NCBI RefSeq assembly: GCF_030542105.1
Contig: NZ_JAUOFB010000002.1
Coordinates: 496,001-560,000 of the forward strand
Source of the DNA: Hymenobacter sp. BT730
GTDB taxonomy: Bacteria; Bacteroidota; Bacteroidia; Cytophagales; Hymenobacteraceae
Reading direction: 5' to 3'
DNA length: 64,000 nucleotides
Every line of letters starts with the position of its first letter. Position 1 is the first letter of the stretch. Positions 3,263-33,503 of this stretch are shown here, in pieces. The notes under the pieces were generated by a model that had not been told where the DNA came from, ran no database searches, and saw nothing but the letters and a program-made list of their open reading frames with translations. The translations under genes and the position numbers were made by a program.

Positions 3263-3271
3263 TGCTGTGGG

Positions 3272-3675
3272 TGATGAGTCTATAAGCCGGGTTTTGTCCG
3301 CGTTGCCGCGGCCCCACCATTTATCTAGGCCAGTCCTCGCGGAAAGGCTCCATCAACCTACCCGCTGGCGCCGGACGAGCCGCCCGGTGCAGGCCCGAAG
3401 ACCCACGTACCAGCTTATTTGGTCTTTCAACCCCTGAGGTTTACCCAGCCGACGCGGTTGCCCGGCCGCTGGTGCGCTCTTACCGCACCTTTTCACCCTT
3501 ACCGGCGGCCCCGAAGGACCACGTAGGCGGTAGTTTTCTGTGGCACTGGCTGTCCTGGCTTGCTTTACGCTCACCAGTCCTTCCCGTTAGGAAGCAGGGT
3601 GCTCTGCGTTGCCCGGACTTTCCTCGTCGCCCTACTTGCGTAAGGCGCCGCGGTGGGGCGACCCATCACTGAGGC
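3272..3675 (-). ncRNA. rnpB: RNase P RNA (class A)
   Basis: The minus strand carries the hallmarks of bacterial RNase P RNA, the catalytic subunit that removes 5' leaders from pre-tRNAs. The 3' end reads as the conserved stretch pairing around ACAAAACCCGGCTTATAGAC. The 5' part holds the paired element ending near TGATGGGTCGCC, and conserved core segments appear between them, including the region around GAGGAAAGTCCGGGC. The length of about 400 nt fits the family. No convincing protein is encoded here on either strand. The ends are set from the conserved first and last helices and could be off by several bases. Confidence 0.93.
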
Positions 3676-23665: not shown

Positions 23666-23696
23666 AAAGCCCGGCCGCCCGCCGGGCTTTTTTATT
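23666..23696 (+). terminator. trp attenuator terminator
   Basis: A perfect 10-bp stem (AAAGCCCGGC with GCCGGGCTTT) with loop CGCCC, followed by TTTATT. It begins 34 bases after the leader peptide stop and ends before trpE, so it acts as a conditional terminator within the leader. Confidence 0.88.
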
Positions 23697-23739
23697 GCTG
23701 CCCGGCGCTGGAACCCTCTCTCAACCACCAGCCCCGCAT

Positions 23740-25155
23740 ATGCAAACCTTCCAGCTCACCACCCGCTTCCAGCGCGTATTAGCCGATACCGTAACGCCCG
23801 TAGGCCTATACCTGCGCCTCCGCGACCGGTACCCCAACTGCCTGCTGCTGGAAAGCTCCGACTACCACGGCCAGCAAAACGCCTTCAGCTACCTGGCTTT
23901 TGATCCGCTGGCCCGGTTTGAACTGCGCGGTGGCGAGCTGGCCCTGACTTTCCCGGACGATACCACCCACACCGAAACGCTGGCGGAACCCCGGCAGGCG
24001 CTGGCACGGCTGCAGCAGTTCTCCAACAGCTTTCAGACCGAAGAAACCGGCCACGACTTCATCACCGGGGGGCTGTTCGGGTACATTGGCTACGAGGCCG
24101 TGCAGTACTTCGAGGATCTGGAGTTGAACACCGAAAAGCTGCCGGCCGGTGAAATTCCGGATATCCTGTACAGCACCTACCGCTACGTTATTGCCGTCAA
24201 CCACTTCCGCAACGAGCTGTTTGTGTTTGAGCACAACCTGGCCGGCGAGCCGACGGACGAAAGTAGCCTCACGCGCCTGGTAAACCTCATTCGCAATCCT
24301 TCGCTGCCGGATTTCAAGTTTCAGGCAGTGGGTGAGGAGCAGACCAACCAGACCGACGAGGAGTTTCTGCAGGTGCTGGCGCAGGGGCAGCAGCACTGCC
24401 GCCGCGGCAACGTGTTCCAGATAGTATTGTCACGCCGCTTCCAGCAGGGCTTTTCCGGTGATGAGTTCAACGTATATCGGGCGTTGCGCTCCATCAACCC
24501 CTCGCCGTATCTATTTTACTTCGATTACGGCTCCTTCAAGATTTTTGGCTCTTCGCCCGAAACCCAATTGTTGGTGAAAGGCCGTCAGGCTAGCCTTTAC
24601 CCCATTGCCGGCACCTTCCGCCGTACCGGCCACGATGCCGAAGACGCCGCCCTGGCCCAGAAGCTGGCCGACGACCCCAAGGAAAATGCCGAGCACGTAA
24701 TGCTGGTAGACCTGGCCCGCAACGACCTGGCCCGCCACGGCGACAAAGTGGAGGTAAAGGTGTTCCGCGAAATTCAGTTCTACTCCCACGTCATTCACCT
24801 CGTAAGTGAAGTAACGGCCCAACTGGCTCCCAAGGCTAGCTCCCTGCAGGTAGTGGCCGATACCTTCCCGGCCGGCACCCTTTCCGGAGCCCCCAAGCAC
24901 CGCGCCATGCAGCTCATTGATGGCCTGGAGCCCACCGCCCGCGGCTACTACGGCGGCGCCATCGGCCACCTGGGCTTCAACGGCGACTTCAATCACGCCA
25001 TCATGATTCGCTCCTTCCTGAGCACTGCCAACCAACTCTATTTCCAGGCCGGCGCCGGGGTAGTAGCCGCCTCCGATATCAACTCCGAGCTGCAGGAAGT
25101 GCACCACAAGTTGGCTGCCCTACGCAAAGCCTTAAAAGAAGCCGAACTGGTTTAG
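23740..25155 (+). CDS. trpE: Anthranilate synthase component I, 471 aa
   Basis: Converts chorismate to anthranilate, the first committed step of tryptophan synthesis, with ammonia supplied by TrpG. The N-terminal LLESS motif (CLLLESSDYHG) is the conserved Trp feedback-binding site. The chorismate-binding C-terminal half is complete: IVLSRRF, FGSSPETQLL, PIAGTFRRTG, MLVDLARNDL and GTLSGAPKHRAMQLID. ATG at 23740 is preferred to an upstream TTG that would lie in the attenuator hairpin. It is the first structural gene after the leader and attenuator. The LLESS motif and the operon context favour TrpE over the related PabB. Confidence 0.96.
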   Translation: MQTFQLTTRFQRVLADTVTPVGLYLRLRDRYPNCLLLESSDYHGQQNAFSYLAFDPLARFELRGGELALTFPDDTTHTETLAEPRQALARLQQFSNSFQTEETGHDFITGGLFGYIGYEAVQYFEDLELNTEKLPAGEIPDILYSTYRYVIAVNHFRNELFVFEHNLAGEPTDESSLTRLVNLIRNPSLPDFKFQAVGEEQTNQTDEEFLQVLAQGQQHCRRGNVFQIVLSRRFQQGFSGDEFNVYRALRSINPSPYLFYFDYGSFKIFGSSPETQLLVKGRQASLYPIAGTFRRTGHDAEDAALAQKLADDPKENAEHVMLVDLARNDLARHGDKVEVKVFREIQFYSHVIHLVSEVTAQLAPKASSLQVVADTFPAGTLSGAPKHRAMQLIDGLEPTARGYYGGAIGHLGFNGDFNHAIMIRSFLSTANQLYFQAGAGVVAASDINSELQEVHHKLAALRKALKEAELV

Positions 25156-25202
25156 GTAATCATAACCCCCTCCTAACTACCAACTTATAAGCCCACCCAA
25201 CT

Positions 25203-25781
25203 ATGGAACTCCTCGTTCTCGATAACTACGACTCCTTCACCTACAACCTTGTGCAAGTGCTGCGGGAGTTGGGCCACACCGATAATGTCACCATCATCCG
25301 CAACGATAAGCTGACGGTGGAAGATGTGGCCGAATACGATGCCATCCTCCTTTCCCCCGGCCCCGGTCTGCCTTCTGAAGCCGGCCTGATGCCGGAAATT
25401 ATTCGCCAGTACGCGCCCACCAAACGCATTTTGGGCGTGTGCCTGGGGCACCAGGGACTGGCCGAGAGCTTTGGCGGCAAGCTGTACAACCTGCCACAGG
25501 TACTGCATGGACTGGCCACCGAAGCGGAAGTAGTAGCCAAGGATAGAATGTTTGCCGGCCTGCCCGCCCGCTTTAAAGTCGGCCGCTACCATTCCTGGAG
25601 CGTGCGGCCTGAGTCGATACCCGACACACTGGAAGTCACCGCGCTGGACGAAAACGGCCAAGTACTGGCCTTCCGCCACCGCGAGTATGATGTGCGCGGC
25701 GTGCAGTTTCATCCGGAATCTATTCTCACAGAGCACGGCCACCAGATGCTGCGCAACTGGCTTTCCCCGGAACTGGCTTAA
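25203..25781 (+). CDS. trpG: Anthranilate synthase component II, glutamine amidotransferase, 192 aa
   Basis: Releases ammonia from glutamine and passes it to TrpE. It is a class I amidotransferase with catalytic Cys80 in GVCLGHQG and the His170 and Glu172 pair in VQFHPES, so the triad is intact. The N-terminus, LLVLDNYDSFTYNL, is typical of the TrpG/PabA group. It starts 47 bases after trpE and may also serve folate synthesis, as in many bacteria with one such subunit. A palindromic repeat lies between this gene and trpD. Confidence 0.96.
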   Translation: MELLVLDNYDSFTYNLVQVLRELGHTDNVTIIRNDKLTVEDVAEYDAILLSPGPGLPSEAGLMPEIIRQYAPTKRILGVCLGHQGLAESFGGKLYNLPQVLHGLATEAEVVAKDRMFAGLPARFKVGRYHSWSVRPESIPDTLEVTALDENGQVLAFRHREYDVRGVQFHPESILTEHGHQMLRNWLSPELA

Positions 25782-25785
25782 CTAA

Positions 25786-25882
25786 CATCCTGAGCTTGCG
25801 AAGGACCTTCTGACTGAAGAGCTACTCTGGTAACAAGGACTCGTGCTTGCCTGAGAAGGTCCTTCGCAAGCTCAGGATGACA
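25786..25882. repeat. Palindromic dispersed repeat, copy 3, inside the trp operon
   Basis: The arms read CATCCTGAGCTTGCGAAGGACCTTCT and its complement; the inner TTGC is shared by both arms and differs from copies 1 and 2. The first bases (TGT) of the left arm are missing. It lies between trpG and trpD, in transcribed DNA, where the RNA would fold into a long hairpin. Confidence 0.9.
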
Positions 25883-25920
25883 GTTTTAATAATGATGAAA
25901 TCACGCCCTATTCAACAATT

Positions 25921-26913
25921 TTGAAACAGATACTTAATCAATTATTTGACCAACAGCTGCTCTCGCACGCCGAAGCGCGGGAAGCCATGCTTCGCATCGG
26001 TCAGGGTGAAGCCAATGCTTCGGAAATGGCAGCCTTCATGACGGTGTACCGCATGCGCCCCATTTCGGTACCGGAGCTGGCTGGTTTTCGCGACGCGCTG
26101 CTCAGCCTTAGCCGTGACCCGGAACTGGGCACCCGCGACACGGTAGATATTGTGGGCACCGGCGGCGACGGCAAAGACACCCTGAATATCAGCACGCTGG
26201 CTTGCTTTGTGGTGGCCGGCGCAGGCTATAAAGTAACCAAGCATGGCAACATCGGGGTTTCCTCCGTATGTGGTTCCTCGGATGTACTGGCGCAGTTGGG
26301 CGTAGGGTTTGGGGCCAGTAACGAGGTTCTGCAGCGCCAACTGGAGCGAGCTAATATCTGCTTCCTGCACGCGCCATCCTTCCATCCGGCTATGCGCCAC
26401 GCGGGTCCGGTGCGGCGGGAATTGGGCGTGCGTACTTTCTTCAATATTCTGGGGCCGCTCGTAAATCCGGCCCGCCCTAAGTTTCAGGTGGCAGGCACTT
26501 TCAGCCTGGAATTGCTGCGGTTGTATAACTACTTATTGCAGCAAACCGATACCAGCTACGCCGTAGTGCACGCCCTGGATGGCTACGATGAACTCTCCTT
26601 AACGGCCACCGCCAAACTGGCCACGCCGGTAGGGGAGCGGCTGGTAACGGCGGCTGATTTCGGACTGGCAACCACGCTTCCCGCTGAACTGGCTGGTGGC
26701 CGCACCGCCGCTGAATCGGCCCAGTTGTTTTTGGATGTGCTGGAGGGCCGTGCTACCCGCGCCCAGCGAGACGTAGTAACGGCCAACGCTGCCCTCGCCA
26801 TTAGTTGTCTGGAACCTAACTTCAGTATGGCCGCTTCCTTAGCTGCGGCACAGGAGTCACTGGACTCCGGCCGCGCCCGGCAGGCACTGCGCGAGCTGGT
26901 CTCCGCGCAGTAA
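25921..26913 (+). CDS. trpD: Anthranilate phosphoribosyltransferase, 330 aa
   Basis: Transfers the phosphoribosyl group of PRPP to anthranilate. The glycine-rich PRPP site is GTGGDGKDTLNIST, and KHGNIGVSSVCGSSDVLAQLG is the conserved anthranilate and PRPP loop, at about residues 101-121. The glycine-rich N-terminal helices and the NPARP segment are present. No in-frame ATG fits the family N-terminus, so I call TTG at 25921 (TTG AAA CAG ATA). This makes a normal N-terminal helix. Upstream, a 97-base palindromic repeat separates it from trpG, so translation probably restarts after the repeat hairpin. Confidence 0.93.
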   Translation: MKQILNQLFDQQLLSHAEAREAMLRIGQGEANASEMAAFMTVYRMRPISVPELAGFRDALLSLSRDPELGTRDTVDIVGTGGDGKDTLNISTLACFVVAGAGYKVTKHGNIGVSSVCGSSDVLAQLGVGFGASNEVLQRQLERANICFLHAPSFHPAMRHAGPVRRELGVRTFFNILGPLVNPARPKFQVAGTFSLELLRLYNYLLQQTDTSYAVVHALDGYDELSLTATAKLATPVGERLVTAADFGLATTLPAELAGGRTAAESAQLFLDVLEGRATRAQRDVVTANAALAISCLEPNFSMAASLAAAQESLDSGRARQALRELVSAQ

Positions 26914-27007
26914 GCCAGTTCAAAAAATGTTTAGTCATCCTTTGCCAACCTCAGGCTGACAGAAGAAATAAATAAGTACTCAAACAGAGCCTGCAGCTCT
27001 TTCAATC

Positions 27008-27820
27008 ATGACCATTCTCGATAAAATCATTGTCCACAAACGACAGGAAGTAGCTTCCCGCCAGGGCTTAGTGCCTGCCAAATTGCTTGAGCAAAGCCTG
27101 TACATGAATGCCCAGCCGCTGAGCCTGCGCCGCTACCTGCTGCGCGACGATTTGAGCGGCATTATTGCCGAATTCAAGCGGAAGTCGCCAAGCAAAGGCG
27201 TGATTAATGCGCATGCCCCGGTAGAGCGCACCACGCTGGGCTATATGCAGGCCGGCGCTTCCGCCTTATCCATCCTGACGGATACGGAGTTTTTCGGCGG
27301 CAAGAATGAGGACCTAACTACGGCGCGGCGCTACAATTTCTGCCCCATTCTGCGCAAGGATTTCGTGGTAGATGAATACCAGATTCTGGAAGCCAAAAGC
27401 ATTGGGGCCGATGCGGTGCTACTTATTGCGGCGGTACTCACGCCCGAAGAAGTGCTGCGCATGGGTCGTTTTGCCAAAAGCCTGGGCCTGGAAGTGCTGC
27501 TCGAAATACACAACGCCGAAGAGCTAGACCGCACCCTGCATCCTGATGCCGTGAGCCTGGTGGGCGTCAACAACCGCAACCTCCATGACTTTTCCGTGAG
27601 CCTGGATACTTCCGGCGAACTAGCCCAGCGCATTCCCAGTGAGTTTGTGAAAGTGACGGAAAGCGGGCTGACTTCGGCCGCCGAGATTGAAGCCCTGCGC
27701 GCCGTGGGCTACCGCGGGTTCCTCATTGGCGAAACGTTCATGCGCAACAGTCGGCCGGAAAAAGCCTGCGCCGCGCTGGTGCAGCAATTGCGCCACACTG
27801 AAGCGGTAACGTTACTCTAA
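27008..27820 (+). CDS. trpC: Indole-3-glycerol phosphate synthase, 270 aa
   Basis: Closes the indole ring in tryptophan synthesis (CdRP to indole-3-glycerol phosphate). A TIM barrel with family motifs: AEFKRKSPSKG (substrate phosphate and catalytic Lys), LTDTEFFGG, PILRKDFVVDEYQI, EVLLEIHN, VGVNNRNLHDF and ESGLTS. It is a separate protein from TrpF, not fused as in Escherichia coli. Its TAA overlaps the trpF ATG by one base (TAATG), indicating translational coupling. Confidence 0.96.
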   Translation: MTILDKIIVHKRQEVASRQGLVPAKLLEQSLYMNAQPLSLRRYLLRDDLSGIIAEFKRKSPSKGVINAHAPVERTTLGYMQAGASALSILTDTEFFGGKNEDLTTARRYNFCPILRKDFVVDEYQILEAKSIGADAVLLIAAVLTPEEVLRMGRFAKSLGLEVLLEIHNAEELDRTLHPDAVSLVGVNNRNLHDFSVSLDTSGELAQRIPSEFVKVTESGLTSAAEIEALRAVGYRGFLIGETFMRNSRPEKACAALVQQLRHTEAVTLL

Positions 27821-28476
27821 TGAGCCTTCGCCTGAAAGTTTGCGGCATGGCGCGGCCCGATAACCTGCGCGCCGTGGCTGCGCTGTGGCCTGATTTCCTG
27901 GGCTTTATCTTCTACCCAAAGTCCCAGCGTTTTGCAGGCGCAACCCTGCAACCGGCCGACACGGCGGCTTTGCCCGCGGAGATTCTGAAAGTCGGGGTGT
28001 TCGTAGATGAAGAGCTGGAAGTAATTAGGGTACGGGTGCAGGAATTTAGCTTGGACTTGGTGCAGCTGCACGGCTCCGAAACACCTGAAACTTGCGCCGC
28101 GCTGCAAGCTGCAGGTATCCCCGTCAGCAAAGCTTTTGCGGTAGGAGAGACGTTCGACTTTTCAGTGCTGGCACCTTATGTGGGCAGCGTTACCTACTTC
28201 CTTTTTGATACCGTGGGCGCCCAGCCCGGGGGTAATGGCACCACCTTCAATTGGCAGCTGCTGGAACAATACACTTTACCGGTGCCATACTTCCTGGCGG
28301 GTGGGTTGGCACTGGAGCACGCTGCCGAATTACGCAACCTCTGCCTGCCCGGCCTGTTTGCACTGGACCTGAACAGTCGGTTTGAAACCGCGCCCGGCGT
28401 GAAAGATGCCGTACAGCTGCAGCAATTATTCCACGAAATCCGGACGCCCGACGTCTCAACTTCTATACCGTCATGA
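27820..28476 (+). CDS. trpF: Phosphoribosylanthranilate isomerase, 218 aa
   Basis: Catalyses the Amadori rearrangement of phosphoribosylanthranilate to CdRP. A TIM barrel starting [15 protein letters not shown], where Cys is the catalytic base. The Asp acid is in [18 protein letters not shown], and [11 protein letters not shown] and [17 protein letters not shown] form the phosphate site. The family usually has DxSSGxE near the end; here it reads DLNSRFE, a normal variant in this phylum. The start overlaps the trpC stop by one base and its stop overlaps the trpB start by four bases (ATGA). Confidence 0.95.
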
Positions 28477-29669
28477 AACCAACCTACCAGCAACCCACGG
28501 AGCGTGGCTACTACGGCCAGTTTGGCGGAGCTTTCATTCCCGAAATGCTCTACCCCAACGTAGAGGAGCTGCGCCAGCAATACCTCGATATTCTGGCCGA
28601 GCCCGAGTTTCAGGAGGAATACCAGATGCTGCTCCGGGACTATGTGGGCCGTCCTACGCCGCTGTTTGAGGCTAAGCGCCTGTCAGCGAAATACAACACC
28701 CGCGTTTTCCTGAAGCGCGAGGACCTCTGCCACACCGGCGCCCATAAAGTCAATAACACGGTAGGGCAGATTCTGCTGGCTAAGCGCCTGGGCAAAACCC
28801 GCATCATTGCCGAAACCGGCGCGGGCCAGCATGGTGTGGCTACTGCCACGGTTTGCGCCCTCATGGGGATGCAGTGCATTGTGTATATGGGCGAGGTGGA
28901 CATGGAGCGGCAAAAGCCCAACGTTTACCGCATGCGCCTGCTGGGAGCCGAAGTACGCGCCGCCATGAGTGGCAGCCGCACGCTGAAAGATGCCACCAAC
29001 GAGGCCATCCGGGACTGGATTTCCAACCCCGTGGATACGCACTACATCATCGGCTCCGTAGTAGGTCCCCACCCGTACCCCGATCTGGTGGCGCGGCTGC
29101 AGTCGGTTATCAGCGAAGAGATGCGCAAACAGCTGCTGGAAAAAACCGGTTCCGAGCTGCCGCAATATGTGGTGGCTTGTGTGGGTGGGGGCTCTAATGC
29201 GGCGGGTGCTTTCTACCATTTCCTGGAAGAGCCTTCGGTGCAGCTGGTAGCGGTGGAAGCGGCCGGCCATGGGATTCATTCCGGCCACTCAGCGGCTACC
29301 TCGGTGCTAGGTACGCCGGGCATTATACACGGCTCCCGCACATTGCTGATGCAGGATGAGGAAGGCCAGATTACCGAGCCGTATTCTATTTCGGCGGGGC
29401 TCGATTACCCAGGTATTGGGCCACTGCACGCTTTCCTGGCCGACGCCGGCCGGGCGCGGTTTATCAGCATTGAAGACGAGGATGCTTTGCGCGCTGTCTC
29501 GGAGCTGAGCCGACTGGAAGGCATTATTCCCGCCCTGGAAACGGCCCACGCCCTAGCTGCGCTGGGTCAGCTGGGCGCCGGGCCCGATGATGTAGTAGTA
29601 GTAAACTTATCCGGACGCGGCGACAAAGACCTGGAAACCTACCTGAAGTACGCCGACACGATTCTGTAA
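28473..29669 (+). CDS. trpB: Tryptophan synthase beta chain, 398 aa
   Basis: PLP enzyme joining indole and serine to make tryptophan, working as an alpha2beta2 complex with TrpA. Family features: [13 protein letters not shown] at the start, PLP-binding Lys92 in HTGAHKVNN, the [11 protein letters not shown] loop, and the PLP phosphate site [10 protein letters not shown]. It is of TrpB1 type, normal length. It is coupled to trpF by a four-base overlap and followed three bases later by trpA. Confidence 0.97.
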
Positions 29670-29672
29670 CCC

Positions 29673-30455
29673 ATGACCAACCGCATAGCTCAGGCCTTCG
29701 CCCGCAAAAAGAAAGGCCTGCTCAATATCTACTTCACGGCCGGCTACCCCACGCTGGATTCTACGGTACCGCTGCTCACTGCTTTAACTAATGCCGGAGC
29801 AGACCTGATTGAAATCGGGATGCCATTTTCTGACCCACTAGCCGATGGCCCCGTTATTCAGCAAAGCAGCACCGTGGCGCTGAAAAATGGCATGAACCTG
29901 CGGGTGCTGTTTCGCCAGCTGGCCGATATCCGGAGTCAGGTGCCGGACACGCCCATTCTGCTCATGGGCTACCTGAACCCGGTAATGCAGTTTGGGGTAG
30001 AGAACTTCTGCCGGGAAGCGGCAGCGGTAGGAGTGGATGGCATCATTCTGCCCGACCTGCCCCTGGACGACTACGTGGCCGAATATCAGGAAATCTTCCA
30101 GCGCTATAACCTGCGCCCGGTCTTCTTGATTACCCCGCAAACCGCCACAGAGCGCATCCGCCGCATCGACGACCTAACAGATTCTTTCCTCTACCTCGTA
30201 TCCGGTCCCGGCACCACCGGCGGTGCCAATACCCAGGCCGAAGGGGTGCAGGACGCTTACTTCCAACGCATCGAAGACATGAAGCTCCGGAACCCGCGCC
30301 TGATTGGCTTCGGCATAGGCGACAAAGCTTCCTTCCAACACGCCTGCCAGTTTGCTGAAGGCGCCATCATCGGCTCTGCCCTGATCCGCGCCCTCGATGA
30401 TACCGAGGATGCCCCGGCGGCGGCCAGCCGCTTTGTGCAGTCGGTGCTTCAGTAA
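29673..30455 (+). CDS. trpA: Tryptophan synthase alpha chain, 260 aa
   Basis: Cleaves indole-3-glycerol phosphate to indole and passes the indole through a tunnel to TrpB. The TIM barrel shows TAGYPTLDSTVPLL, catalytic Glu and Asp in LIEIGMPFSDPLADGPVIQ at about residues 46-65, DGIILPDLPLDD, and the phosphate loop segment SGPGTTGG. Three bases separate it from trpB. A DAHP synthase gene follows 34 bases later on the same strand, so the operon extends into the common aromatic pathway. Confidence 0.96.
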   Translation: MTNRIAQAFARKKKGLLNIYFTAGYPTLDSTVPLLTALTNAGADLIEIGMPFSDPLADGPVIQQSSTVALKNGMNLRVLFRQLADIRSQVPDTPILLMGYLNPVMQFGVENFCREAAAVGVDGIILPDLPLDDYVAEYQEIFQRYNLRPVFLITPQTATERIRRIDDLTDSFLYLVSGPGTTGGANTQAEGVQDAYFQRIEDMKLRNPRLIGFGIGDKASFQHACQFAEGAIIGSALIRALDDTEDAPAAASRFVQSVLQ

Positions 30456-30489
30456 TTCTTTTCTCTGCCCTCCTGATTTTCTCTACTCA

Positions 30490-31503
30490 ATGATTATCCA
30501 ACTCGAACCCAATATCTCAGCTACTGCCCAGGCTGATATTGAAGCACGCATCAAGGCGCTCAAATACAAAGTAACCGACGTAAAAACACAGCGCGCCCAC
30601 TACCTGGTGGCTATTGGCAAAGCTGAAATTGACCTGCGTGCCATTGGCCAGTTGCCAGGCATCCTCGATATCCATCGGGTATCTGACGACTACAAGCTGG
30701 TGAGCCGCAAATGGCGCGTGCGCCCCACTGTACTCGACCTCGGCGACGGTGTGCGGATAGGAGAGGGGAGCCTCACGCTGGCCGCCGGCCCTTGTAGTAT
30801 TGAGAGCGAAGCGCAGATGGAACTGATCATGCAGCACCTGGTGGATAATGACGTGCGCATCATGCGCGGCGGCGTGTTCAAGCCCCGTTCCTCCCCATAT
30901 TCCTTCCGCGGTTTGGGCATGGATGGCCTCAAGCTATTTCACCAAATGGCCCGGGCCCGCGGCATCAAGATTGTGACGGAGGTAATGCAGGTGTCACAGG
31001 TAGAGGAGATGCACGATTACGTGGATGTGTTCCAGGTAGGCGCGCGCAATACCCAGAACTTTAATCTGCTGGATGCTCTGGGCGGCGTAGACAAGCCCGT
31101 GATGATTAAGCGCGGTATTTCCGGCACCATTGAAGAGCTACTCTCTTCGGCGGAATACGTGTTTTCCGGGGGTAATGAAAAGCTGATTCTATGCGAGCGG
31201 GGCATCCGCACCTTCGAGACGGCCTCGCGCAATACGTTGGACCTGAATGCCGTGCCCATCCTGAAAGAGAAAACGCACCTGCCCGTTATCGTCGACCCCT
31301 CACACGGCATCGGCATTCGGGAGCATGTGGCGCCTATGGCGCTGGCCGGCGTTATGGCCGGCGCCGATGGCATCATCTACGAAGCGCACGAAAAGCCGGA
31401 AGAAGCCGCTTCCGACGGGCAGCAGACCCTAAACTTTGCGGAGTCGGAGCGCCTGATTCGGAATTTGCGCCGCGTTTATTACCTGCGGCAAGAGTTGGAA
31501 TAA
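30490..31503 (+). CDS. aroF: DAHP synthase, type I-beta with regulatory N-terminal domain, 337 aa
   Basis: Makes 3-deoxy-D-arabino-heptulosonate 7-phosphate, the entry step to all aromatic amino acids. The first 70 residues resemble the ferredoxin-like regulatory domain seen in DAHP synthases such as that of Thermotoga maritima, the known site of Phe/Tyr feedback in that group. The catalytic barrel follows with AAGPCSIES, RGGVFKPRSSPYSFRGLG, QVGARNTQNF, KRG, and VDPSHGIG metal-site motifs. It lies 34 bases after trpA and so is probably in the trp transcript, while its product also feeds Phe and Tyr synthesis. No chorismate mutase domain is seen. The symbol is given for the reaction; the numbering of isozymes varies between species. 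Confidence 0.92.
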   Translation: MIIQLEPNISATAQADIEARIKALKYKVTDVKTQRAHYLVAIGKAEIDLRAIGQLPGILDIHRVSDDYKLVSRKWRVRPTVLDLGDGVRIGEGSLTLAAGPCSIESEAQMELIMQHLVDNDVRIMRGGVFKPRSSPYSFRGLGMDGLKLFHQMARARGIKIVTEVMQVSQVEEMHDYVDVFQVGARNTQNFNLLDALGGVDKPVMIKRGISGTIEELLSSAEYVFSGGNEKLILCERGIRTFETASRNTLDLNAVPILKEKTHLPVIVDPSHGIGIREHVAPMALAGVMAGADGIIYEAHEKPEEAASDGQQTLNFAESERLIRNLRRVYYLRQELE

Positions 31504-31590
31504 CGGTCCTATTTTGTGCTGGAATAGCCATTTTAGCCTTCCCGAAAAAATAATTCCCTTTTTCAGATACAACTAATTAGCTGTTGCCTA

Positions 31591-31598
31591 TATATTTG
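31591..31598 (+). promoter_or_regulatory. Candidate -7 box upstream of the first hydroxylase gene
   Basis: TATATTTG is an exact match to TAnnTTTG. No clear TTG lies 19-21 bases upstream, so the match is incomplete. It is nine bases before a 29-codon reading frame that ends ahead of a terminator hairpin. Confidence 0.4.
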
Positions 31599-31606
31599 CA
31601 ATCAGT

Positions 31607-31696
31607 ATGCAGAACCAATCCGTGAAATGCTTTTATCTAACCCCGATTCGCAATATGCGAAACGGAGTTGGGCTGCATTGCCGGTACGGAAGCTAA
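31607..31696 (+). CDS. Possible leader peptide ahead of the first phenylalanine hydroxylase gene, 29 aa
   Basis: A short reading frame starting just after an exact -7 box and ending 34 bases before a terminator-like hairpin. It contains Cys-Phe-Tyr (TGC TTT TAT) at codons 8-10 and another Tyr near the end. This mirrors the layout of the trp and Tyr-rich leaders in this region, but the aromatic codons are not clustered as strongly, so a chance frame is quite possible. Confidence 0.35.
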   Translation: MQNQSVKCFYLTPIRNMRNGVGLHCRYGS

Positions 31697-31730
31697 GAGC
31701 GCTACATGCTACTTACACGCTGAAAACCAC

Positions 31731-31766
31731 AAAAGCCCGACTCCTTCCAGGAGCCGGGCTTTTTTT
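31731..31766 (+). terminator. Terminator-like hairpin directly before the first hydroxylase gene
   Basis: AAGCCCGaCTCC pairs with GGAGcCGGGCTT around loop TTCCA (one mismatch), followed by a run of T that abuts the ATG at 31767. It either ends the trp-aroF transcript or works as an attenuator for the hydroxylase gene. Confidence 0.75.
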
Positions 31767-32510
31767 ATGTCCATTACCATGTTCGCGCAACACTACGACC
31801 AGTACACTGCTCAGGACCAATTAGTCTGGAAAGTTCTGTTCGACCGCCAGACTGCGCTGCTGCACAAGCGGGCTTGCTCCGCTTTTGCGCAGGGCCTCAA
31901 GCGCATTGGCTTCCACCGCAACGCCATTCCGAAGTTTGAGGAAGTGAACGAGCGGCTGGGTAGCTATACCGGTTGGGAACTGGTGGCGGTGCCCGGTATG
32001 GTAGATGATGCTACTTTCTTTGCCTTGCTGGCGGAGAAGAAGTTTCCGGCGGTTACCTGGATCCGGCCCATGAAGCAGTTTGACTTCATTGAGGAAGCCG
32101 ACTTGTTTCATGATGTCTTCGGGCACGTGCCCTTGCTGACGGACGCGGCGTTTGCCAACTTCCTCCACTTCTTGGGCCACGTAGCCCGCCTGCACCTGAA
32201 CGATGCTCAGGGTTTGCAGCGCCTTCGCGCGCTCTACTGGTTCACGGTAGAATTTGGGTTGGTAATGGAAGATGGTAAGCCGCGCATCTACGGTGCAGGT
32301 CTGCTTTCGTCTGCCGGCGAAACGCACCACTGCGTAGATGATGAAACAATCCGCCGCGACTTTGACCTCGCTTCCGTATTGCATACGCCCTTCACGGAAG
32401 TACGCTTTCAGGAGCAATACTTTGTACTCCCAAATTGGGAGCAGCTCACGGAAAGCGTAGCCGAGCTGGCGGCCTTGCTGTCTACCGACTGGCAGCTTAA
32501 AACCGTCTAG
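31767..32510 (+). CDS. phhA: Phenylalanine 4-monooxygenase, first paralog, 247 aa
   Basis: Pterin-dependent, non-heme iron enzyme that hydroxylates phenylalanine to tyrosine. The catalytic domain alone is present, as in bacterial monomeric enzymes. The iron ligands are His115 and His120 in FHDVFGHVP and Glu162 in WFTVEFGL, with the family spacing. YGAGLLSSAGE follows. ATG 31767 lies right at the end of a terminator T-run; ATG 31779 is an alternative start. A second paralog follows on the same strand, and the two are clearly similar throughout. No pterin recycling enzyme such as PhhB is adjacent. Confidence 0.93.
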   Translation: MSITMFAQHYDQYTAQDQLVWKVLFDRQTALLHKRACSAFAQGLKRIGFHRNAIPKFEEVNERLGSYTGWELVAVPGMVDDATFFALLAEKKFPAVTWIRPMKQFDFIEEADLFHDVFGHVPLLTDAAFANFLHFLGHVARLHLNDAQGLQRLRALYWFTVEFGLVMEDGKPRIYGAGLLSSAGETHHCVDDETIRRDFDLASVLHTPFTEVRFQEQYFVLPNWEQLTESVAELAALLSTDWQLKTV

Positions 32511-32514
32511 CCGC

Positions 32515-32544
32515 TTGTTTCTTCCGGTTTGCCCAATATCTTTA
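32515..32544 (+). promoter_or_regulatory. Candidate promoter of the Tyr-leader/second hydroxylase unit
   Basis: TTG at 32515-32517, a 19-base spacer, then TATCTTTA at 32537-32544, which matches seven of eight bases of TAnnTTTG. The spacing is identical to that of the trp promoter. The leader ATG is only six bases downstream, so the leader message would be almost leaderless. Confidence 0.6.
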
Positions 32545-32549
32545 CTCGC

Positions 32550-32636
32550 ATGATTCGGCTTGTCTCCCGCTATTACGCTTATGCTTATTACGCTCCCGCC
32601 AGGAGCGGAGCGGCTACGGCGTGTCAGCGAGGATAA
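32550..32636 (+). CDS. Tyrosine-rich leader peptide, 28 aa
   Basis: A 28-codon frame with five Tyr codons in seven (TAT TAC GCT TAT GCT TAT TAC at 32571-32591; peptide RYYAYAYYAP), starting six bases after a promoter -7 box and stopping at 32636. A strong terminator begins 24 bases later, followed by a phenylalanine hydroxylase gene whose product is tyrosine. This is the arrangement expected for attenuation sensing charged tRNA-Tyr. A possible antiterminator is visible: GGAGCGG near 32602-32608, just after the Tyr codons, can pair with CCGCTCT at 32671-32677 in the terminator stem. I know of no described leader of this kind for this enzyme, but could not search. Confidence 0.78.
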   Translation: MIRLVSRYYAYAYYAPARSGAATACQRG

Positions 32637-32660
32637 GCACTAACCTCCGACATACTTCTC

Positions 32661-32700
32661 AAGCCTGCTTCCGCTCTGCGGAGGCAGGCTTTCTCTTTTT
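32661..32700 (+). terminator. Attenuator terminator before the second hydroxylase gene
   Basis: A 14-bp stem with one G-T pair (AAGCCTGCTTCCGC with GCGGAGGCAGGCTT) and loop TCT, followed by CTCTTTTT. It lies between the Tyr-rich leader peptide and the gene. Confidence 0.88.
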
Positions 32701-32726
32701 CTGCCCTTATCGTTTTTCGCTTTTTT

Positions 32727-33503
32727 ATGATGACTTTTTCCTCCGCTTCTCTGCTGCCCGATACCGCCACCGCGCTGGCCACCCTGCCATTAATGGAGCA
32801 GCAATACGCCCAGTACACCGCCGCCGACCAGCACGTATGGCAATTGTTGTTCGACCGGCAGTCGGCGTTGCTGCCGGGCCGGGCGGCTGAGCCTTTCCTG
32901 GAAGGTCTGCGCGAAATTGGCTTTCACCGCCATGCCATTCCGGATTTCTCCGAGGTCAACCCACGTTTGCAGGCACTCACCGGCTGGGAACTGGTAGTAG
33001 TGCCGGGTATTGTGGATGATGCTTTATTCTTTGGTCTGCTGGCCGATAAGAAATTTCCCGCTACCACGTGGCTGCGCAAACTGGAACAGCTGGATTACCT
33101 GGAAGAGCCCGACATGTTTCACGACGTATTCGGCCATGTGCCGCTACTGATGAACCCAGGGTTTGCCTCTTTTCTGCAGGAGCTAGGCGAAGCCGCCGTG
33201 CAGCATTTCGAGCGTTGGCCCGGCACACTGGAGCTGTTCACGCGCCTGTACTGGTTTACCGCCGAGTTTGGCCTGCTGCGCCAGCCCGATGGCCTGCGCA
33301 TCTATGGGGCCGGTCTGCTTTCCTCGCACGGAGAAGTGAAGTTCAGCCTCAGCGAAAAACCCACCCGGTTGGAGTTCTCGCTAGATGGTGTACTAACCAC
33401 TCCCTTTGAGAAAGACCATTTTCAGGAGTTGTACTTTGTGCTGGTAAGCATGGATCAATTGGCGGAGAGCCTGAGTCAGTTAAAGGCGCGGCTGGTAGAG
33501 TAG
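32727..33503 (+). CDS. Phenylalanine 4-monooxygenase, second paralog, 258 aa
   Basis: Same family as the preceding gene, with iron ligands His132 and His137 in FHDVFGHVP and Glu180 in WFTAEFGL, and YGAGLLSSHGE after them. The N-terminus is about 10 residues longer. Two starts, ATGATG at 32727, are adjacent, and MEQQYAQY at 32793 would give the length of the first paralog. It has its own promoter, leader peptide and terminator, so it is regulated apart from the first paralog. Both enzymes should make tyrosine from phenylalanine; whether one prefers another aromatic substrate such as tryptophan cannot be told from the motifs. Confidence 0.92.
   Translation: MMTFSSASLLPDTATALATLPLMEQQYAQYTAADQHVWQLLFDRQSALLPGRAAEPFLEGLREIGFHRHAIPDFSEVNPRLQALTGWELVVVPGIVDDALFFGLLADKKFPATTWLRKLEQLDYLEEPDMFHDVFGHVPLLMNPGFASFLQELGEAAVQHFERWPGTLELFTRLYWFTAEFGLLRQPDGLRIYGAGLLSSHGEVKFSLSEKPTRLEFSLDGVLTTPFEKDHFQELYFVLVSMDQLAESLSQLKARLVE

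Follow-up and report, generated by a model that had tools for sequence, protein, structure and literature searches.

Organization of the PAH locus

The window, that is, the whole 64-kb stretch of Hymenobacter sp. BT730 DNA analyzed here, carries a tandem pair of PAH genes downstream of trpEGDCFBA and a DAHP synthase gene. The trp genes, the DAHP synthase gene, and the two PAH genes follow one another on one strand (positions 23695–33503), and thus genes for tryptophan and tyrosine supply are adjacent. The names of trpA and the DAHP synthase gene are based on homology; those of trpE, G, D, C, F, and B are presumed. PAH2, the second gene of the pair, is 55% identical to PAH1 and matched TIGR01267 with 266.6 bits (cut-off 264.75). 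Its best solved relatives are bacterial phenylalanine-4-hydroxylases, for example 4etl and 1ltu, and its nearest named relatives among the matches listed belong to Hymenobacter. A prephenate dehydrogenase-like gene is also present in the same genome, and PAH is therefore probably not the sole tyrosine route of strain BT730. No Tyr leader was seen within 330 nt upstream of that gene. Elsewhere in the window, an RNase P RNA of bacterial class A (243.8 bits, positions 3267–3669, minus strand) was the sole match at the Rfam gathering threshold. The features of the PAH region are listed in Table 1.

Table 1. Features of the PAH1 and PAH2 genes and of their leader regions in the window
Feature	Positions	Strand	Description	Basis or remark
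PAH1 leader ORF	31607..31696	+	MQNQSVKCFYLTPIRNMRNGVGLHCRYGS; different from the PAH2 leader	Sequence; peptides of relatives
Putative antiterminator of the PAH1 leader	31664..31674	+	GGAGTTGGGCT, complementary to AGCCCGACTCC of its terminator	Sequence; relatives tested
Terminator-like hairpin upstream of PAH1	31731..31763	+	T-run abuts ATG 31767	Scan lists the palindrome on the minus strand
PAH1	31767..32510	+	Tandem paralogue of PAH2	Start inferred: ATG 31767 or 31779
Promoter-like pair, Bacteroidota type	32515..32544	+	TTG (32515–32517), 19 nt, TATCTTTA (32537–32544)	Ends 5 nt upstream of the leader ATG
PAH2 leader ORF	32550..32636	+	28 codons, peptide MIRLVSRYYAYAYYAPARSGAATACQRG	Sequence; kept in 30/30 PAH2 loci
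Sensor	32571..32591	+	Five Tyr in seven codons (TAT TAC GCT TAT GCT TAT TAC)	Codon-by-codon counts in 30 leaders; enrichment specific to Tyr across 50 genus labels
Segment 1, anti-antiterminator	32591..32596	+	CGCTCC, able to pair with segment 2	Folding; C-G to U-A exchange
Segment 2, antiterminator	32602..32610	+	GGAGCGGAG	Almost invariant, including codon wobble positions; duplex tests
Segment 3, partner of segment 2	32669..32677	+	Part of terminator 5' arm and loop	Alignment, duplex, and partition-function tests
Intrinsic terminator stem-loop (segments 3:4)	32661..32691	+	14 bp, 3-nt loop	Terminator scan; folding
T-rich tract of the terminator	32692..32701	+	TCTCTTTTTC, after the stem-loop	Sequence; terminator scan
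PAH2, regulated gene	32727..33503	+	Phenylalanine 4-monooxygenase-like	TIGR01267 match; homology to solved structures

A leader with clustered tyrosine codons precedes PAH2

The original prediction had proposed a promoter, a 28-codon leader peptide rich in tyrosine, and a 14-bp terminator in front of a PAH-like gene, and we recovered each of these elements at its proposed position. The tyrosine residues occupy codons 8, 9, 11, 13, and 14 of the leader. Segment 2, the antiterminator, sits within the same ORF, and a spacer of 24 nt separates the ORF from the terminator hairpin. Folding of the 186-nt leader region was better than that of 199 of 200 dinucleotide shuffles (z = −3.17). Among the 906 ATG frames of 8–60 codons in the window (439 and 467 on the two strands, nested starts counted), only the PAH2 leader contained at least four Tyr in eight codons.

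A sigma-70 consensus scan of the window did not include the leader promoter among its matches. In 26 of the 30 PAH2 loci of the genus, the motif TAnnTTT[GA], which we take to be the Bacteroidota −7 box, precedes the leader ATG by 3–9 nt. Within 40 nt of the leader ATG, it occurred in 46 of the 65 Tyr-leader regions described below, compared with 4.9% of mononucleotide shuffles, and in 39 of these 46 the distance between box and ATG was 4–6 nt. Since the box precedes the ATG by only a few nucleotides, translation of the Tyr leaders probably begins very close to the 5' end of the transcript.

Conservation of the leader within the genus

A PAH match was present in 119 of the 120 genus genomes searched. 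The 30 best matches were all PAH2 loci preceded by the leader, with five or six Tyr each, and then by a terminator hairpin. The original prediction had been staked on the conservation of the Tyr codons in relatives, and these codons persist at every one of the 30 loci. The terminator stem of one locus (L013) is imperfect and contains mismatches. Measured from the terminator end assigned by script, PAH2 starts 14–27 nt further on in 22 loci; the value was 44–45 nt in seven loci, in which the script had cut too early, and no start was found in L010. The match of this last locus (PAH2 of G082) contains a TAG within the PAH2 frame, which may mark a pseudogene or an error of sequencing, and its leader and terminator are intact.

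Two forms of the leader peptide, RYYAYAYYAP and RYYYAATYYAP, alternate in the genus; thus, the number of tyrosines is kept while their pattern shifts. The Ser-Gly-Ala codons, which form segment 2 and are complementary to the terminator arm, were almost fixed (AGC in 29/30, GGA in 30/30, and GCG in 30/30 leaders). Wobble bases varied in the Ala codons and in two of the five Tyr codons, and hardly varied in the other three Tyr codons of the 30 leaders, so that RNA pairing may also contribute to keeping the run.

A covariance model built from the genus (R1) scored the 30 PAH2 loci at 89–150 bits and found five further loci at 52–61 bits, each upstream of a PAH gene (at 33–75 nt in four cases and 234 nt in L083). 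All five leaders contain four Tyr in eight codons, for example RRYYCYCTYAP. Two weak matches, L095 and L096 (38–43 bits), also have a PAH gene downstream. Of the more numerous remaining weak matches, the 14 that we inspected (L085–L094 and L097–L100) were rejected, as they resembled ordinary terminators after genes or tRNA-like sequences and had no Tyr-run leader.

The stable alternative structures of the leader could in principle belong to a ligand- or tRNA-binding RNA, such as a tyrosine riboswitch or a T-box, in which the ORF would be incidental. However, R1 finds few PAH leaders outside the genus, where Tyr-run leaders are frequent, which indicates that the shared trait is the run and not one RNA fold. 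Furthermore, no T-box or other Rfam regulatory RNA reached its gathering score at the leader in the window search, which returned RNase P only, and the one Rfam match of the leader region (HCV CRE, 18.5 bits, cut-off 140) is taken as chance. We therefore regard this explanation as hardly credible.

Tyrosine runs recur upstream of PAH genes in other genera and families

We extended the comparison to the order, where 264 of the 390 genomes drawn carried PAH at E 1e-20, and to the class, where 46 of 295 did so at E 1e-30. The resulting set of 119 PAH upstream regions, each 300 or 330 nt long, comprised 59 order, 26 class, and 34 genus loci under 50 genus labels, with the two gene sets of Hymenobacter entered as separate labels. 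Loci from the order and the class were the best-scoring matches plus 40 chosen by hand from the order listing and are not a random sample. The PAH1 upstream regions, which form a separate leader class, were kept outside this set, as were L096 and L148, the latter a duplicate of L168 that was counted once; in L123 the start was not recognizable.

At least four Tyr in eight codons were found in 65 of the 119 regions, representing 17 of the 50 labels. The other 54 regions lacked such a run, including L083 and L162, in which the run falls just outside the 300 nt and was missed. Weighted by genus, Tyr runs occurred in 15.29 of 50 labels, compared with 0.17 expected from dinucleotide shuffles, an excess of about 90-fold. 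No other amino acid had such an excess, the next highest being Leu with 2.86 labels versus 3.18 expected (50 labels). On this excess and the single hit among the 906 frames of the window, we reject a chance Tyr run. The search of PAH upstream regions in relatives, which the original prediction had suggested as a check, yielded Tyr-cluster ORFs in front of terminators across genera and families. A terminator was not detected by script in six of the 71 loci with at least three Tyr in eight codons; one of the six, L013, has the visible imperfect stem.

These data also bear on whether the terminator merely ends the PAH1 transcript, with an independent promoter following it and an accidental Tyr run. 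The position of the terminator between two genes on the same strand is what such an arrangement would produce. Yet a promoter-like box lies upstream of the leader, and leader and terminator are kept in front of PAH2 in L008 and L029, where gene 1 is not adjacent but about 4 kb away. The frequency of Tyr runs, about 90 times that in shuffles, contradicts an accident. This arrangement is thus extremely improbable as an explanation.

Outside the genus the peptide changes, whereas the Tyr run, the terminator, and the PAH gene stay. The runs have unrelated flanks, for example NNAYYYYYYHQ, SKYYYYYYYRI, QSYYYYYPTC, KAYHYHYYH, AYYCYGYYYRC, NAYYYYPSS, and NNYYYYHTP. Arrest peptides rely on specific residues, and a leader of the TnaC type, which would bind free tyrosine or phenylalanine in the exit tunnel and would sense the ligand instead of tRNA charging, should retain residues other than those of the run. 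Within the genus, the good conservation of SRYYAYAYYAP fits this idea, although even there RYYAYAYYAP alternates with RYYYAATYYAP. Between genera, little beyond the Tyr run persists (YYYYYY, YHYHYY, YYCYGYYY), and by inspection we saw no conservation of the other residues. We consider nascent-peptide arrest to be quite unlikely, albeit the least unlikely of the alternatives.

A further alternative is that the leader senses the speed of Tyr decoding through another property of tRNA-Tyr, such as queuosine at position 34. Queuosine-bearing tRNA decodes TAT and TAC alike, and the enriched codons are indeed those for Tyr. However, both codons are used in a mixed fashion (230 TAT and 129 TAC in the 65 leaders). 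Moreover, an enzyme that makes tyrosine agrees better with the sensing of charging, and we judge the queuosine reading to be very improbable, slightly more so than peptide arrest.

A second comparison used named loci, namely the best 80 among the matches listed. At least three Tyr in eight codons were present in 30 of the 80, from Hymenobacter, Solirubrum, Pontibacter, Fulvivirga, Roseivirga, Marivirga, Echinicola, and Chitinophagales MAGs, and a terminator was detected by script in 22 of these 30. The remaining 50 loci, for example those of Algoriphagus, Belliella, and Spirosoma, lacked such a cluster. A few of the named loci with three Tyr are probably due to chance, and several named loci lie on contigs of genomes already counted, so that the two comparisons are not independent.

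The leaders of L161–L167 (f1/g2) and of L264, L266, and L291 (Pontibacter) are longer, with 39–60 codons as read. Their Tyr run lies toward the C-terminus (for example SYCLSVYSYYSYYYRYYR), and their terminators differ (GAAGCAGAGC...).

Predicted mutually exclusive pairing in the leader RNA

The original prediction had paired GGAGCGG (32602–32608) with CCGCTCT (32671–32677). We retain this pairing: in the 30 genus sequences, standard pairs occupied 97.9% of cells, compared with 44–61% when the pairing was slid. Covariation in the hairpins, which had been proposed as a further check, gave a divided answer. Within the genus, we found no double-sided change in the 2:3 helix, and covariation was not above that of shuffles (335/500). 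Because the helix is nearly invariant, covariation within the genus cannot serve as proof of it. Between genera, the complementary segments do differ together: AGCGGA/TCCGCT in Hymenobacter corresponds to GCGGAACGGT/CCGGTTCCGC in f19/g76, GTTCCGGAAATGGGC/GCCCGGTTCCGGAA in f39, and TGATGGAATAGG/CCTATTCCATC in f19/g38. In L022, L023, and L026, a C-G pair of the competing 1:2 helix is replaced by U-A (columns 34/42 of alignment A1).

When compared with mononucleotide shuffles, the duplex between the segment following the Tyr run and the terminator arm ranked in the top 5% at 27 of 29 PAH2 loci and at 21 of 36 other loci; for the window, none of 200 shuffles was as good. It did not exceed 95% of shuffles in two of the 29 PAH2 loci and in 15 of the 36 others, including all four loci of f1/g5 (L141–L143 and L145) and several isolated loci. 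In 56 of the 65 loci, the duplex started 8–15 nt past the last Tyr codon (range 6–26, the search having begun at 6).

We then modeled the competition between the helices with a partition function, taking the transcript at the point when the terminator loop is made and assuming the ribosome footprint lengths. For the window, the predicted pairing of the terminator arm with the antiterminator was 0.73 with a ribosome at the first Tyr codon and 0.81 with a ribosome at the last one. It fell to 0.08 for ribosome-free RNA and to 0.01 when the ribosome stood at the stop codon, the latter value being partly built in because the model takes only RNA 3' of the ribosome. The mean predicted pairing over 18 labels (65 loci) was 0.60 at the first Tyr codon, 0.57 at the last Tyr codon, 0.35 for free RNA, and 0.14 at the stop codon. 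In ten PAH2 loci (L002, L017–L021, L024, L025, L027, and L028), segment 2 was predicted to be free without a ribosome (0.65–0.81), which would mean that untranslated RNA terminates poorly there.

Proposed mechanism and relation to known systems

The window combines a leader ORF with Tyr codons, an intrinsic terminator, and a mutually exclusive antiterminator, placed such that, with the assumed footprint lengths, a ribosome on the run would mask segment 1 and not the antiterminator. By homology of PAH2 to phenylalanine 4-monooxygenases, the downstream gene would also make or use the amino acid that is sensed. From these sequence features and their conservation, we propose with a probability of roughly 0.87 that PAH2 is controlled by transcription attenuation in which a ribosome on the leader monitors charged tRNA-Tyr. 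RNA polymerase would start approximately at the leader ATG, and a ribosome would translate the leader during its synthesis. With plentiful Tyr-tRNA, the ribosome would clear the Tyr run and reach the stop codon; segment 2 would be covered or would pair with segment 1, the terminator would form, and transcription would stop upstream of PAH2. With scarce Tyr-tRNA, the ribosome would stall at the Tyr codons and cover segment 1, segment 2 would pair with the 5' arm of the terminator, and transcription would go on into PAH2, whose product may then convert phenylalanine to tyrosine. PAH2 would then have a biosynthetic role in strain BT730. The recurrence of a Tyr leader and a terminator in front of PAH in many Bacteroidota suggests that the gene is probably switched on when Tyr-tRNA is short.

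Leader-peptide attenuation as such is well known. Textbook attenuators of this kind sense Trp, His, Phe, Leu, Ile, Val, and Thr, and Cys in some lineages; to our knowledge, tyrosine is absent among these cues. A literature search, which left most subscription papers outside its reach, returned neither a tyrosine-specific attenuator nor an attenuator on PAH, and we thus found neither the Tyr specificity nor the PAH target described.

The closest case is aroR of Corynebacterium glutamicum, the Phe-Tyr-Phe leader of aroF, which, like the PAH2 leader, places a Tyr codon in front of an aromatic pathway gene. The account of Neshat et al. (2014) given in PMC11802643 reports a response of aroR when Phe is limiting, with no response to Tyr. 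Its target is DAHP synthase and its host belongs to another phylum, whereas the gene considered here is PAH in Bacteroidota. According to the same source, E. coli pheL-pheA and pheST also have codons for the sensed amino acid in a leader before a related gene, but they sense Phe and their targets are chorismate mutase-prephenate dehydratase and Phe-tRNA synthetase, in contrast to Tyr and an aromatic hydroxylase for PAH2. The cysS leader uORFC-8-2 of Rhodobacterales, as outlined in PMC8632094, is likewise a comparative prediction with conserved codons for one amino acid followed by an intrinsic terminator; unlike the PAH2 leader, it concerns Cys, a tRNA synthetase target, and alphaproteobacteria. 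PhhR of Pseudomonas aeruginosa also regulates a phenylalanine hydroxylase gene; according to PMC1173090, it is a protein activator of a catabolic operon, whereas the PAH2 leader is an RNA element whose logic is that of biosynthesis.

A recurring Tyr attenuator in front of PAH would imply that PAH is regulated as a tyrosine biosynthesis gene in these Bacteroidota. This would fit Echinicola vietnamensis, in which mutant fitness data (PMC7311316) support two routes, tyrosine being made by PAH beside prephenate dehydrogenase. In two other Echinicola species, we observed a Tyr-rich leader and a terminator upstream of PAH. The Tyr leader could serve as a sequence signature for assigning biosynthetic PAHs, and the attenuator would represent a natural switch responsive to tyrosine.

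A different leader precedes PAH1

PAH1 is preceded by a separate attenuator-like region that comprises a promoter-like box, a leader ORF, and a terminator hairpin; this leader is not rich in Tyr. We fetched 40 PAH1 regions (one from the other gene set) and obtained a leader peptide by script in 34 of them; the consensus in relatives is approximately M.NQ.AKCF.L.NIRP..DGVGL.CRYGS. By eye, no run of a single amino acid was seen in 35 aligned peptides. Single-base codon differences were synonymous in 545 and nonsynonymous in 1111 cases, which indicates that the PAH1 leader peptide itself is not strongly held. The pairing between the leader segment and the terminator arm, the latter chosen by rule as the first GCCC after the stop codon, ranked in the top 2.5% relative to shuffles at 29 of 33 loci.

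Both leaders start within a few bases of their promoter box, so that the mRNAs translated would be leaderless or nearly so. Taken together, we lean toward a broader picture, with clearly less confidence than in the PAH2 attenuator itself: tyrosine would be a previously undescribed attenuation cue, placed before PAH in many families of one class; a different attenuator would control each gene of the Hymenobacter PAH pair, with a reader of Tyr-tRNA at PAH2 and the second leader at PAH1; and both leaders would belong to leaderless or near-leaderless mRNAs.

A tandem arrangement was also seen in another genus of the family (L095, genome G378), in which a leader-like ORF followed by a terminator lies upstream of each of the two PAH genes, only one leader being Tyr-rich (NYYYYRP) and the other reading MKLFALYFTIVKCNPMHNPLGTETPYGQS.
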